Source: Chloroflexota bacterium
GTDB taxonomy: Bacteria > Chloroflexota > Limnocylindria > P2-11E
Assembly: GCA_028876375.1 (NCBI GenBank)
Contig: JAGWSB010000017.1
Span: 1-38,314, forward strand
Length of the DNA stretch: 38,314 bases
Direction: 5' to 3'
The notes under the pieces are model-generated. The model made no database searches. It worked only from the letters and a program-made list of their open reading frames with translations, and was not told where the DNA came from. Of the stretch, positions 7,086 to 13,256 are shown piece by piece. How positions within the stretch are numbered: position 1 is the stretch's first letter; each line of letters begins with the position of its first letter. Position numbers and translations under genes: made by a program.

Positions 7086-9497
7086 CTATTCCCCCCAGCG
7101 AGGCGGCGCCGGCGGGCGGACCTCCGGCGGCCGCACTCCGCGTCGGTCCTCGCCGTCGAGCGGGATGTGCTCGCTCGGCTTCCACGTCCGGGCCACGGCC
7201 AGCTCCTCCTTGGCGAGAACGGTCGTGCCGAAGCGCTGGTAGACGGAGAGCTCGAAGTTCGGCGTCTCCCCCAGCGCGGCGTGCGGGCAGACCTCGACGC
7301 AGTCGCCGCAGTAGATGCAGCGCGTGATGTCGAGCTCCCAGGTCTCGAGATCCCGCTCGCGCATCATCAGCGCGCCCGTCGGGCAGGTCTCGGCGCAGGC
7401 GCCGCACGAGACGCAGTCGGTGTACTGCAGCGACACGTTCCACGGCGTCGTCACGATCGAGTCGTAGCCCACGCCCATGAGGCCGTAGCAGTTCGCGCCG
7501 ATGACGTCGCGGCAGATGCGGACGCACTGCGTGCAGTTGATGCACTTGTTGAGGTCGCGAAGGATGAAGTCGTGGCTGAAGTCGTACTCGTAGTCGTGGT
7601 AGTCGACCGGCTCCGCGCGGTGGAAGCGGTTCTCGGTGAGGCCGTGCTCGAGCGACAGCCGCTGGAGATGACAGCGGCCGACGTCGGGGCAGACGCACTG
7701 GAGGCAGCGCCCGGCCTCCTTCTCCGCCTGCTGCTTGGCGTAGCCGCTCTCGATGAGCTGGAAGCTCTGAACGCGCTGGTCGAAGGGCAGGAACGGCATG
7801 CGCACCTGCGGCTCTTCGGGCTTGTACGGCACGATGTCGATGAGCTCGGGGACGGACTCCTCCTCCGTGATCTCCGCGGCGACCTCGGCCATGTCGGCGC
7901 CGCTCAGGTAGCGGTCGATGGCCTTCGCCGCCAGCTTCCCCTGCGCGACGGACTGGATGACCGTGACGGCGCCCATCTGGCAGTCGCCGCCGGCGAACAC
8001 GCCGGGGCGATCGGTCATGAGCGCGCCGTTGGCCACGATGGTCTCGCGGCGCGTCTTGCGCAGCCCCGGCGAAGCCCCGTACCAGTCGAGGTCCGGCACC
8101 TGGCCGATGGCCGGGATGACCGTGTCGCACTCGATGACGAAGTTCGAGCCCTCGATGGGGACCGGGCGGCGGCGGCCGGAGGCGTCCGGCTCGCCGAGCG
8201 CCATGCGCTGGAACTCGACGCCGCCCACGCGGCCGTCCTTCTCGACGATCTTCACCGGCGCGGCGAAGAACTCGAGCCGGATGCCCTCGTGCTCCGCGTC
8301 GTCGACCTCGCTGTAGTGCGCACCCATCTCTTTGCGCGACCGGCGGTAGACGACGGTGACGTCGGCGCCGAGGCGGCGCGACGTGCGCGAGCAGTCGAAC
8401 GTGGTGAACCCGCCGCCGATGACGACGACCTTGCTGCCCTTCCCCACCGGCACCGGGTCGCCGCGCGCGTTCTGGTTGAGGTAGTTGATGGCCTCGATGA
8501 CCCCCGGGAGGTCCTCGCCGGGGATGCGCAGCTCGTTGCTGCGCCACGCCCCGATCCCGAGGAAGACGGCGTCGTAGCCCTGCGCGAAGAGGTCGTCGAT
8601 GCTGAAGTCGCGGCCGAGCATCATGCCGCCCTTGAACTCGGCGCCCAGCTGCCACACGCAGTTGAGCTCCTTGTCGAGCTTCACCTTCGGCAGGCGGTAC
8701 TCGGGGATGCCGTAGCGGAGCATGCCGCCCTGCTTCGGCATCATGTCGAACACCGTCACCTGGTGCCCCTTGAGCGACGAGTAGTAGGCGCACGTCATCC
8801 CCGAAGGCCCGGCGCCGATGACCGCGACGCGCTTGCCGGTCGCCGCCGCCTGCGGGAACGGCGTCGGGGCTTTGTCCATCTCGAGCGAGAGCTCGCCGAA
8901 GTACCCGTGGCACTGGCGGATGGCGATCTCCTCCTCGACCAGCCCGCGGCGGCACACCTCCTGGCACGGCGCCGGACAGACCAGGCCGAGCGCGTACGGG
9001 AAGGGCAGCGTCTCCTTGAGGAGGCGCGCCGCCTCGAGGTGCTGGCCCTTCGCCTCGAGCTCGAGGAAGCCCGGGATGTCGATGTGCGTCGGGCAGCCGA
9101 TCTGGCACGGCGGCATGCAGTACGCGTTGTGGTCGCTGAGGATGTATTCGAGGTTCTGACGGCGCTTCGCGAAGAGGCCGTCGCCCGTGGCCTTGATCTT
9201 CATCCCCGGCGTCACCGGCAGATGGCACGACGGCATCGGACGGTCGTAGCCTTCGATCTCGACGAGGCACATGCGACACGCCGCCGCCGGCGCGAGCTTC
9301 TCGTCGTCACACAGCGTCGGGACGTCGAAGCCGGCGCGCTGCGCCGCGCGGAGGATCGACTCGCCGATCGCGGCGGTGACCTCCTGGCCGTCGATCTCGA
9401 TGCTGCAGGTCGGCATCCCCGAGGGGATCTCGCCGTGGTGCGACACGGTGGGGATCTGCGACTCGGTCGACTGGACGTAGCGCTCGAGGATGCTCAC
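7086..9497 (-). CDS. NuoG-type 2Fe-2S domain :: GltD-like FAD/NAD(P) oxidoreductase :: NuoG-like 4Fe-4S :: NuoI C-terminal half fusion
   Basis: Proposed GTG start 9497 after AGGAGA. CDDEKLAPAAACRMCLVEIEGYDRPMPSC (2Fe-2S); YILSDHNAYCMPPCQIGCPTHIDIPGFL; GKRVAVIGAGPSGMTCAYY and GKGSKVVVIGGGFTTFD (GltD-like); DLNKCINCTQCVRICRDVIGANC; TDCVSCGACAETCPTGAL; ITRCIYCGDCVEVCPHAALGETPNFELSVYQ (NuoI-like). Confidence 0.92.
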   Translation of the reverse strand: MSILERYVQSTESQIPTVSHHGEIPSGMPTCSIEIDGQEVTAAIGESILRAAQRAGFDVPTLCDDEKLAPAAACRMCLVEIEGYDRPMPSCHLPVTPGMKIKATGDGLFAKRRQNLEYILSDHNAYCMPPCQIGCPTHIDIPGFLELEAKGQHLEAARLLKETLPFPYALGLVCPAPCQEVCRRGLVEEEIAIRQCHGYFGELSLEMDKAPTPFPQAAATGKRVAVIGAGPSGMTCAYYSSLKGHQVTVFDMMPKQGGMLRYGIPEYRLPKVKLDKELNCVWQLGAEFKGGMMLGRDFSIDDLFAQGYDAVFLGIGAWRSNELRIPGEDLPGVIEAINYLNQNARGDPVPVGKGSKVVVIGGGFTTFDCSRTSRRLGADVTVVYRRSRKEMGAHYSEVDDAEHEGIRLEFFAAPVKIVEKDGRVGGVEFQRMALGEPDASGRRRPVPIEGSNFVIECDTVIPAIGQVPDLDWYGASPGLRKTRRETIVANGALMTDRPGVFAGGDCQMGAVTVIQSVAQGKLAAKAIDRYLSGADMAEVAAEITEEESVPELIDIVPYKPEEPQVRMPFLPFDQRVQSFQLIESGYAKQQAEKEAGRCLQCVCPDVGRCHLQRLSLEHGLTENRFHRAEPVDYHDYEYDFSHDFILRDLNKCINCTQCVRICRDVIGANCYGLMGVGYDSIVTTPWNVSLQYTDCVSCGACAETCPTGALMMRERDLETWELDITRCIYCGDCVEVCPHAALGETPNFELSVYQRFGTTVLAKEELAVARTWKPSEHIPLDGEDRRGVRPPEVRPPAPPRWGE

Positions 9498-9511
9498 GTC
9501 GTCACTCTCTC

Positions 9512-10750
9512 CTAGGGCTGGGCCATCGTTTCGTAGCGGCGCGAGCGGCTGGGAGCGCACGTCCCTTCCGGGCAGCGGCGCTCGACGATGTGGGCGCGGT
9601 AGTCGTCCGGGAACTCGGCGATCGTCGTACGCACGATCGACGCGCTGGTGATGCCGAAGCCGCACAGCGAGAAGTCGCTCAGATGGTCGGCGAGCTCGCC
9701 GAGCCACTTCAGGTCGTCCTCGCGGCCGAGCCCGGAGGAGATCGACTCGAGGATCCCGCGGACGCGCTTGGTCCCGACGCGGCACGGGACGCAGATCGCG
9801 CACGTCTCCTTCGAGAGGTACTCGAAGAGCCGCGCCGCCTCCGCGACGATGCACGTCCCTTCCGCGATCGCGCGCACCTGCCCCGACCCCATGTACGTCC
9901 CCGCCGCCTTCAGGTCCTCGTAGTCGTAGCGGACGCCCGTCCGCGTCGAATTCAGGATCCCGCAGGTCGGGCCTCCGACATGGATCGCCTTGAGCGCGTG
10001 GGTGACGCCGCCCGCCGTTTGGACGACCTCCCCCAGCGTCGTTCCCAGGCTCACCTCGTACACGCCCGGCTCCGCGACCGCGCCGGTCACCGACACGAGC
10101 TTCGTGCCGCGCGAGCCTCCGCTGCCGGAGAAGGAGTCGGGTCCGTCGCGCACGATGAGGGGCAGCGCCGCGAGCGTCTCGGCGGACGACACCAGCGTCG
10201 GCCGCAGTCGGACGCCCTGCTCGGCGGGCCACGGCGGACGCTGCCGGGCCATCGCGCGCTTGTTCTCGAGCACCGCGAGGAGCGCGCTCTCCTCTCCGCC
10301 CATGAACCCGCCCGGGCCGAGCGCGATCTCGACGCTGACGCCGTCGTCGTGCCGCGCGACGGCGGCGATCGCCTTCTCGGCCGCGGACCGGGCGGCGGTC
10401 GCCTCCGGATGGAGATAGAGCCACGCCTCGCGGGCGCCGACCGCGCGCGCGGCGATGACGATGCCGCCGAGCACGAGCTCCGGCGACCGCTCGAGCAGCG
10501 TTCGCGAGAGCGGGCTGGCCGGATCCGCGTCGTACGCGTTGGCCACGACGTAGGCGGGGTCGCCGGATACCTCCGCGGCGGTCCGCGTCGCGCGCATCTT
10601 CGCGCCGAGGGGGAAGCCCGCGCCGCCGCGTCCGCGCAGCTCGGACCCCTCGATCAGCGCGATCGTGTCGTCGGCCGACAGCGCGAGCGCCCGCTCGCGG
10701 CTCCCGGTCGCATCGGCGCCGAGGAGGCGGAAGGCCGCGCTAGTCGGCAT
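9512..10750 (-). CDS. nuoF: NADH-quinone oxidoreductase subunit F-like (51 kDa) flavoprotein
   Basis: ELRGRGGAGFPLGAKM, GPGGFMGGEESALLAVLENKRAMARQRPPWPAEQG, SKETCAICVPCRVGTKRV...SLCGFG. Confidence 0.9.
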   Translation of the reverse strand: MPTSAAFRLLGADATGSRERALALSADDTIALIEGSELRGRGGAGFPLGAKMRATRTAAEVSGDPAYVVANAYDADPASPLSRTLLERSPELVLGGIVIAARAVGAREAWLYLHPEATAARSAAEKAIAAVARHDDGVSVEIALGPGGFMGGEESALLAVLENKRAMARQRPPWPAEQGVRLRPTLVSSAETLAALPLIVRDGPDSFSGSGGSRGTKLVSVTGAVAEPGVYEVSLGTTLGEVVQTAGGVTHALKAIHVGGPTCGILNSTRTGVRYDYEDLKAAGTYMGSGQVRAIAEGTCIVAEAARLFEYLSKETCAICVPCRVGTKRVRGILESISSGLGREDDLKWLGELADHLSDFSLCGFGITSASIVRTTIAEFPDDYRAHIVERRCPEGTCAPSRSRRYETMAQP

Positions 10751-11462
10751 ACGCGGGCTCCAGCGGCTGCGCGACGTCCTGGTCGTGGAGCGTGTCGTGG
10801 ACCGGGGCGGGCGATACCGGCGGCCAGCTGGCCGCGATGCCGACGTTCCCGGTGTAGCGCCGGCCGCCGCGCGGGATCGCCGTCCCCTCCCCCGGGGGCG
10901 CGCCTCGGAAGTTCGGCAGCAGCGACGCGGCGGTGTAGACGCTCGTCATCGCCACGTCGAACTCCGCCGCGACGAGCTGCGCCGCGGTCCACGGCAGGTA
11001 GCCGTAGGCCCCGTGCGCCGCGTACAGGACGCGGTGCAGACGGTCGGCGGTGTGCGGCGTCTGGCTGAGGATGCGGCGCATCGGCGCGAGGTCGAGCGAC
11101 GTCTCGTCCTCGGCCGGGACGGTCGTCACCACCTGCGACATCGGCCGGCGCGCGCCGTACGGCGCGGCGGCGACCATGCGGATGCGGTAGTACGCGCTGC
11201 GCGGCGCGATCGTCGGGCGCTTGCGGAAGCCGTTGCGGAACTTGTACGAGATGGAGATCGCCCGCGGCGGGCAGGCCTTCTCGCACATGAGGCACGACTC
11301 GCACTTGAAGATGTTCGTCTCCGGCTCGAGGAGCAGCGCGATGAGGCCGCGGCTGCGCTCGGGCAGCTCGCGCTTCTCGTACGGGTACTTGCGCGTGACC
11401 GCTTGATGCCGCAGCGCGTGGCTCAGCGTCCGCCGGAGCCCGACGAAGATGCCGCTGATCAT
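10740..11462 (-). CDS. NuoI N-terminal half (single 4Fe-4S motif) fused to NuoE-like helical domain
   Basis: FVGLRRTLSHALRHQAVTRKYPYEKRELPERSRGLIALL...FKCESCLMCEKACPPRAISISYKF (NuoI-like), then RILSQTPHTADRLHRVLYAAHGAYGYLPWTAAQLVAAEFDVAMTSVYTAASLLPNF (NuoE helical bundle); no Cys after that. Confidence 0.85.
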   Translation of the reverse strand: MISGIFVGLRRTLSHALRHQAVTRKYPYEKRELPERSRGLIALLLEPETNIFKCESCLMCEKACPPRAISISYKFRNGFRKRPTIAPRSAYYRIRMVAAAPYGARRPMSQVVTTVPAEDETSLDLAPMRRILSQTPHTADRLHRVLYAAHGAYGYLPWTAAQLVAAEFDVAMTSVYTAASLLPNFRGAPPGEGTAIPRGGRRYTGNVGIAASWPPVSPAPVHDTLHDQDVAQPLEPAYAD

Positions 11463-11475
11463 CGCGCGCGGCTCG

Positions 11476-12672
11476 TCATCGATCGACGTCGCCGAGGACG
11501 ATGTCGATGGATCCGAGGATGGCCACGAGGTCGGCGATGAGGCGGCCGTTCAGCAGCCACGGCAGGATCTGCAGGTTCATGAAGGACGGGCCGCGCATCT
11601 TCGCGCGGAAGGGGTTCGGCGCCGACCCGCCGGCGCTGATCATGTAGAACCCGACCTCGCCCTTCGCGCCCTCGACCGTGTAGTAGGCCTCGCCGCGCGG
11701 GCACTTCCACACGTGCCCCTGGCGCGCGCGCACCGGTCCCGCCGGGAGCTTATCGATGCATTCGCGGATGAGGGCGATCGACAGCTTCATCTCGTTGAGG
11801 CGCACCTGATAGCGCGCGTAGGCGTCGCCCTCGGTGAAGATCACCGGCCTCAGCGTCTTCAGCTCGGGATAGATCGAGTAGGGCCGGTCGCGCCGCAGGT
11901 CCCAGTCGACGCCCGACCCGCGCGCCATCGGCCCGGTGAGGCCGTATTGCAGCGCGACCTCCTTGGGGATGACGCCGATGCCGACGGTCCGCTCGAGGAA
12001 GATCTCGTTGCCCTCGAGGATCTCGCGGTAGTCCCGGTCGATCGCCTTCTCCCAGCGGTCGAGGAACCGCTCGATCTTTCCCAGGACCCCCGGCGGGAAG
12101 TCGTACAGGAGTCCGCCGGGGCGGAAGTAGTTGTGGTTCATCCGCGATCCGCAGATCTCCTCGAGGATGTCGAGGATCTCCTCGCGGTCGCGCATGCACC
12201 ACAGGAACGGCGTCGTCGCGCCGACGTCGAGGCCGTACGACCCGAGCCAGATGCAGTGCGAGGCAGACCGCGACAGCTCGTCGACGATGACCCGCAGGAA
12301 CTCCGCGCGACGCGGCACGTCGATGCCCGCGATGGCCTCGGCGGCCCCGCAGTAAGCGTGCTCGTTGAGCATCGCCGAGACGTAGTCCGCCTGGTCCGCG
12401 TAGCGCGGCCCCTGCTGGTACGTGCGCCACTCGAAGATCTTTTCCAGGCCGCGGTGGAGGTAGCCCATCACCGGGACGCACTCGACGATCATCTCGCCGT
12501 TCAGCTTGATGACGAGGCGGAGCACGCCGTGCGTCGAGGGGTGCTGCGGTCCGAGGTTGAGGATGAGCTCCTCGGTCTCGAGCCCCTCGCCGATGGTCTC
12601 TATCTCCGGCGGTGGAGCCTCGGCGGGCACGCCGCCACGCTGCTCGCGCCGCATGTCGGTCTCGGTGGCCAT
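11476..12672 (-). CDS. nuoD: NADH-quinone oxidoreductase subunit D (49 kDa)
   Basis: LGPQHPSTHGVLRLVIKLNGE...GYLHRGLEKIFEWRTYQQGPRYADQADYVSAMLNEHAY...GSIDIVLGDVDR. ATG at 12672 overlaps the nuoB stop (ATGA). Confidence 0.97.
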   Translation of the reverse strand: MATETDMRREQRGGVPAEAPPPEIETIGEGLETEELILNLGPQHPSTHGVLRLVIKLNGEMIVECVPVMGYLHRGLEKIFEWRTYQQGPRYADQADYVSAMLNEHAYCGAAEAIAGIDVPRRAEFLRVIVDELSRSASHCIWLGSYGLDVGATTPFLWCMRDREEILDILEEICGSRMNHNYFRPGGLLYDFPPGVLGKIERFLDRWEKAIDRDYREILEGNEIFLERTVGIGVIPKEVALQYGLTGPMARGSGVDWDLRRDRPYSIYPELKTLRPVIFTEGDAYARYQVRLNEMKLSIALIRECIDKLPAGPVRARQGHVWKCPRGEAYYTVEGAKGEVGFYMISAGGSAPNPFRAKMRGPSFMNLQILPWLLNGRLIADLVAILGSIDIVLGDVDR

Positions 12673-13256
12673 CAGCCTCCTCGGAAGATCTTCTCGCGGA
12701 GACGCAGGATCCCCTCTGTCAGCGCTTCGGGGCGCGGCGGGCACCCGGGAACGTACACGTCCACGGGCACGACCGTGTCGACGCCCTGGAGCGTCGCGTA
12801 GCTGTCCCAGAACTCGCCGCCGGACGAGGCGCAGTTGCCCATCGCGATGACCCACTTCGGCTCGGGCATCTGCTCGTACAGCCGCCGCAGGCGCGGCGCC
12901 ATCTTGTGGGTGACGGTGCCCGCGACGATCATCACGTCGGCCTGCCGCGGGCTCGACCGGAACACCTCCGCGCCGAAGCGCGCGAGGTCGTGGTGCGACG
13001 CGGAGGCGGCCATCATCTCGATCGCGCAGCACGCGAGGCCGTAGCCCAAGGGCCACGGGCTGCGCGAGCGCGCCCAGCTCATGAGGTCCTTGATGGTGGC
13101 GAAGACGACGTTGTCCTCGTTGGCGAGCGCGCCGGGCGTCGGGGGAACGTAGTCGGGAGCGCCGAGGCCTGTCTGTGTGGTCGTCGGCCGCTCCTTGAGC
13201 GCGTCCGCGATCTCGAAGTGGATCGGGCGCGCCGGCGGCTTCTGATCGACAGCCAT
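12672..13256 (-). CDS. nuoB: NADH-quinone oxidoreductase subunit B
   Basis: [16 protein letters not shown]...[28 protein letters not shown]...[49 protein letters not shown]. Confidence 0.97.

Follow-up and report, generated by a model that had tools for sequence, protein, structure and literature searches.

The window, which is the whole 38,314-nucleotide stretch of Chloroflexota DNA analysed here, very likely encodes part of an NAD(P)H-oxidising complex I whose nuoI gene is interrupted by an inserted gene cassette and whose two NuoI halves, each fused to a different partner, refold as a two-cluster NuoI. The operon in the window has the order B-D-[I_N·E]-F-[G·I_C], where I_N·E encodes the N-terminal half of NuoI fused to a NuoE-type protein and G·I_C encodes a NuoG-type protein fused to the C-terminal half. 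The split itself is confirmed as real and beyond chance, and the interpretation proposed in an earlier, sequence-only reading of the same DNA is supported overall.

Two fusion proteins that share NuoI

The I_N·E protein (240 aa; 10740..11462, minus strand) matches the NuoI profile TIGR01971 (121 positions) with its residues 9-80, covering profile positions 2-70 at 38.9 bits, and a PF01257/HoxE/FdhG-type profile with its residues 122-194, in agreement with the sequence-only reading that the protein begins with the NuoI N-terminal region and first cluster motif and then becomes a NuoE-like bundle. The NuoI half (11241..11462, minus strand) was delimited by profile, flank HMM and alignment, and consists of an N-terminal helix, the YPYEKRELPERSRG flank and motif I (C54-x2-C57-x2-C60-x3-C64-P). 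The NuoI-specific parts of this half, namely the N-terminal helix and the YP...RG flank, are both present. An HMM made from the pre-motif region only of canonical Chloroflexota NuoI scores the window at 27 bits and the split-type sequences at 24.8-54 bits, whereas the controls, other Fer4 proteins of the window genome and of locus L218, score 0.1 or less. The NuoE/HydC-type helical bundle (10905..11108, minus strand) is identified by profile matches to the small subunits of NfnABC, StnABC and HydABC, by an AF2 model and by Foldseek, in which the bundle was matched alone (probability 1.0, E 2e-3 to 3e-2). The AF2 model is confident for the N-terminal helix and for the bundle (pLDDT mostly >90); the half-ferredoxin has pLDDT <50, which is compatible with an orphan half and is no proof of one.

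About 45 residues link the N-terminal half to the NuoE helices (11109-11240), and this linker keeps the motif YYRIRM...APYGARRP, with GFYTPRISEYA found in other families. The thioredoxin-like [2Fe-2S] domain of NuoE, which carries N1a, is lost in the window lineage (10740-10904), and some or all of its cysteines are gone in families f3-f5 (alignment A1).

The G·I_C protein (803 aa; 7086..9497, minus strand) is a Fer2-GltD-NuoG fusion that runs into the second NuoI half. From its N-terminus it contains, all on the minus strand, an N1b-like [2Fe-2S] Fer2 domain (9189..9404; PF13510), a GltD-like FAD/NAD(P)H domain with a DPD-type 4Fe-4S entry (7878..9119; PF14691, PF07992, TIGR01316 and matches to NfnL/GltD structures), a NuoG/HydA-type pair of 4Fe-4S motifs (7362..7568; CINCTQC... 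and CVSCGACAETCP; PF12838, PF22117) and the NuoI C-terminal half, WELDITRCIYCGDCVEVCPHAALGETPNFELSVYQR...KEEL, with motif II (C727-x2-C730-x2-C733-x3-C737-P). The half is supported by TIGR01971, by NuoI chains and by alignment, and lies at about 7200..7367; the claim that a NuoI second half ends this fusion thus stands, with its position corrected from 7086-7328. Residues 713-755 match profile positions 69-111 at about 44.5 bits. The closest solved relatives of the whole protein are the Stn/Nfn-ABC enzymes (PDB 8oh5, 9bov, 9n5u), whose NfnA/StnC chains match residues 30-733 at 499-567 bits and end before the NuoI half.

A family profile of the C-terminal half, built from 33 sequences, retrieved the NuoI chains of solved complexes I at about 57-65 bits (columns 110-156), mostly over the third motif and the FELxxYxR-like extension, and the best single stretch among the polyferredoxins shown reached about 32 bits, so that the half does not align better to generic ferredoxins. 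An HMM of the 32-residue C-terminal extension gives 4.5 bits for the window and at most -1.4 for controls, which is weakly NuoI-like for a very short model. An AF2 model of the G tail (33 sequences; pLDDT 32.5) was meaningless and was discarded. The extreme C-terminus (7086-7199) is Pro-rich and conserved, reading VRPPEVRPPAPPRW in the window's family and VRPLPPRSIRE in family f21. Two f21 genomes (G170, G080) carry two tandem G·I_C copies behind a single I_N·E and F (loci L224, 4830-9820, and L225, 3446-8443).

When scanned against TIGR01971, the two halves are complementary (profile positions 2-70 and 69-111 of 121) and are the two best NuoI matches in the whole genome, although neither alone reaches the curated cut-off of 113.05 bits. 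No complete NuoI above this cut-off was found by a profile search of the whole window genome. The break lies in the loop between the two motifs, whose length varies in alignments of canonical NuoI, and leaves one CxxCxxCxxxCP motif of the N6a/N6b type on each chain. The cysteines of motif I are intact in 83/83 and those of motif II in 62/62 split-type sequences, some loci being counted under two ids; in two sequences flagged by the script, an adjacent residue is changed and the cysteines are kept. Both halves are under purifying selection, with dN/dS of 0.16-0.33 for the N-terminal half and 0.04-0.24 for the C-terminal half.

The halves joined in silico cover profile positions 2-111 of 121 and score 85.9 bits for the window, 113.7 bits for L063, a relative in the class whose join thereby passes the NuoI cut-off, and 88.3 bits for L181. 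The score of the window's join is not decisive, because a control chimera of the N-terminal half with the last two NuoG-side motifs scores 90 bits. The control result would also suit an arrangement in which the third motif of the G protein pairs inside that protein with the preceding NuoG motif, the N-terminal half binds a cluster alone or none, and no NuoI is formed. PF12838 spans both of these G motifs (45.5 bits), and their spacing is fixed at 20 residues in 62/62 sequences, as would also be expected of a normal two-cluster ferredoxin. However, in NuoG-type domains the two 4Fe-4S motifs pair with each other, also in the relatives without a third motif, as represented by the HydA, StnC and NfnA matches. 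Moreover, both halves have NuoI-specific parts outside the motif and all four cysteines each, and internal pairing would leave the class without NuoI, in spite of a complex I gene set that is otherwise complete and conserved. Such pairing is accordingly considered unlikely, and reassembly of the two halves into one NuoI is the preferred reading.

Neighbouring subunits, distribution and gene order

The flanking genes of the window, all on the minus strand, encode further complex I subunits. NuoB (194 aa; 12672..13256), the carrier of cluster N2, matches NF005012 at 241.9 bits (cut-off 116) and PF01058. NuoD (11476..12672; TIGR01962, NF004739, PRK12322) is of the short type: it is matched end to end by full-length FpoD and PRK12322 models, and its PF00346 match falls into two pieces, positions of about 170-196 (about 28 residues) being absent. 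NuoF (412 aa; 9512..10750; TIGR01959 at 273.5 bits, PF01512, SLBB, PF10589) has the FMN/NADH site and the N3 cluster, its 5' end overlaps the 3' end of the I_N·E gene, and no extra Fer4 or Trx domain was found in it with Pfam.

The window holds only B, D, I_N·E, F and G, and its E-F-G proteins are most like Nfn/Stn-ABC, as might be expected if the product were a soluble enzyme, either an NAD(P)H dehydrogenase or a transhydrogenase, that works with partners resembling NuoB and NuoD. This is very unlikely, given that A, C, H, J, K, L and M of the window genome (completeness 89.8%) are encoded on contig C56, that families f3-f5 have the same genes in one operon, and that families with large genomes have separate A-C-D-H and J-K-L-M loci. 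Among the core subunits of a membrane complex I, A, B, C, D, H, J, K, L and M are thus all supplied by the window and contig C56 together. Contig C56 has no nuoI between H and J, and the halves in the window do not occupy an H/J position.

The I_N·E query matches 53 of the 61 nearest genomes, and the fusion occurs throughout the class, which is probably Limnocylindria. NuoI above the cut-off is present in 165 of 251 genomes of the phylum, and in none of 31 genomes of the class (the window genome and 30 sampled ones, including one that is 99% complete), so that the search for a complete NuoI elsewhere agrees with the proposed split. One genome without a convincing I_N·E match (G041) was considered as a counterexample and rejected: its NuoB-NuoD contig has no adjoining H, E, F or G, and canonical NuoI is missing from this genome as well. 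At its locus L254 (contig C90), nuoB and nuoD stand without nuoH, I_N·E, F or G beside them; genome G053 likewise lacks I_N·E.

The same fusion pair is found in five further Chloroflexota families (f13, f21, f33, f35, f38), which also retain canonical NuoI; in the genomes examined from f21, f35 and f38, it belongs to a canonical nuo cluster that is complete. Genomes of f21 reach 13.7 Mb. Outside the class, the split set is distributed over several loci, B-[I_N·E]-F-[G·I_C] and A-C-D-H, with J-K-L-M as a further separate locus in the f21 genomes examined; f33 has A-B-C-D-H-[I_N·E]-F-[G·I_C], with J-L-M elsewhere. The source assembly of the window is fragmented (134 contigs), which might raise the thought of an assembly or frameshift artefact. 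That explanation is extremely improbable, because the same fusion pair occurs in dozens of independently assembled genomes, including multi-megabase single-contig ones.

In families f3, f4 and f5, all genes form a single operon, A-B-C-D-H-[I_N·E]-F-[G·I_C]-J-K-L-M, where M is an L-like match after L that was taken as M. The halves here flank E-F-G exactly at the nuoI position, between H and J, a synteny that lends further weight to the split. In other Chloroflexota families, uninterrupted 11-gene operons run A-B-C-D-H-I-J-K-L with an unsplit I and without E-F-G, and in canonical 14-gene operons E-F-G follows D and precedes H. Locus L218 (4363-10293) has a free-standing cassette, E-F-[Fer2-GltD-NuoG-FdhA], in which the G protein has no NuoI half; a second E-F pair lies about 900 bases downstream of it, in a genome of about 0.9 Mb.

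From these comparisons of sequence and gene order, we infer an insertion event. The ancestor would have had an 11-gene complex I operon, A-B-C-D-H-I-J-K-L-M-N, without an NADH module. An Nfn/Stn-ABC-type three-gene cassette (NuoE-like, NuoF-like and Fer2-GltD-NuoG-like) may then have been inserted inside nuoI, in the variable loop between its two 4Fe-4S motifs, such that the 5' half of nuoI would read into the E gene and the G gene would read into the 3' half. In the window lineage, the operon would later have broken up into B-D-[I_N·E]-F-[G·I_C] and, on another contig, A-C-H-J-K-L-M.

A history in which NuoI is likewise reconstituted, having been split by separate gene-fission and fusion events rather than by one insertion, is rather unlikely. 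In the window and in the families with large genomes, the split-type genes are scattered over two or three loci, so that gene order by itself cannot settle their history. Against separate events stand the order and orientation expected of one insertion, which three class families show in full and f33 shows as far as G, and the fact that a single insertion of the cassette into nuoI explains both fusions. In addition, the NuoD tree (midpoint root) places all split-type sequences in one clade, separate from those of the 11-gene and 14-gene types, with support of 97/94. In the G tree, the split type falls into two groups, one of f3-f5 and one of f1 with the other families.

Proposed working and relation to known enzymes

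In a two-cluster ferredoxin fold, each CxxCxxCxxxCP motif ligates one cluster with three of its cysteines and the second cluster with the remaining one. The two halves are predicted to fold together on NuoB/NuoD as the usual two-cluster NuoI, in which N6a and N6b would each be ligated by both chains; because the ligands are crossed between the motifs in this fold, each cluster would require both chains. We infer that N6a and N6b are ligated in trans, which would tie the modules of the complex together. A natural two-chain ferredoxin of this kind, in which N6a and N6b each take three cysteines from one polypeptide and one from another, and which arose by cassette insertion into the nuoI of an 11-subunit enzyme, is probable. 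It would represent a second, independent route by which complex I gained a pyridine-nucleotide input module.

NADH would enter at the FMN of NuoF, and NADPH probably at the FAD of the GltD domain. Electrons would pass from the NuoG clusters through N6a, N6b and N2 to quinone, and the tether via both E and G would lock the input module to the quinone module. NADPH use and proton pumping are likewise predicted. An added ferredoxin domain in NuoF marks the bifurcating relatives (PMC9304861), and electron bifurcation is unlikely here because NuoF is without such a domain.

The enzyme resembles the 14-subunit respiratory complex I (Nuo/Nqo) in its homologous subunits, its NuoF-/NuoG-type input and its NuoA/B/C/D/H/J-M core. 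It differs from it in that NuoI consists of two half-proteins, one fused to E and the other to G, a GltD NAD(P)H domain is present in NuoG, which lacks a molybdopterin-like domain, NuoE is without its [2Fe-2S] domain (in the window lineage) and NuoD is short. The 11-subunit complex I-like enzymes, exemplified by that of Desulfitobacterium hafniense (PMC11238625), share the short NuoD, and the A-B-C-D-H-I-J-K-L order of the Chloroflexota relatives equals the split operon minus E-F-G; however, their NuoI is encoded by one gene and they have no NAD(P)H module.

The Stn/Nfn-ABC (Nfn-Bfu) transhydrogenases, which are soluble and bifurcating (PMC10482914, PMC7483475, PMC9304861), share the NuoE-like, NuoF-like and Fer2-GltD-NuoG fusion subunits. 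In contrast to these enzymes, in which StnC ends in an inactive FdhF domain, the G protein here ends in half a NuoI and the F protein has no extra ferredoxin domain. The nearest described idea, as far as the available text of its description extends, is Nuo-Bfu of Geobacter and others, a 14-subunit (A-N) complex I in which the NADH module is replaced mid-operon by a bifurcating-type ABC module (PMC9304861); that text mentions neither a split NuoI nor a GltD domain (PMC9304861). No description of a split NuoI was found in the literature searched, which excluded subscription journals and preprints.

The subunits of complex I are commonly seen as a fixed set of modules, and to our knowledge NuoI is universally conserved. 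In this class, NuoI is broken within its cluster-bearing fold, yet it is under purifying selection across genomes in which no other NuoI was found. The arrangement also suggests a complex I that accepts electrons from NADPH as well as NADH. An origin of two-cluster ferredoxins from two half-units has long been proposed; if the halves do reassemble, they would provide a natural test of that origin, together with a gene-order record of an 11-subunit complex I acquiring an NAD(P)H module.
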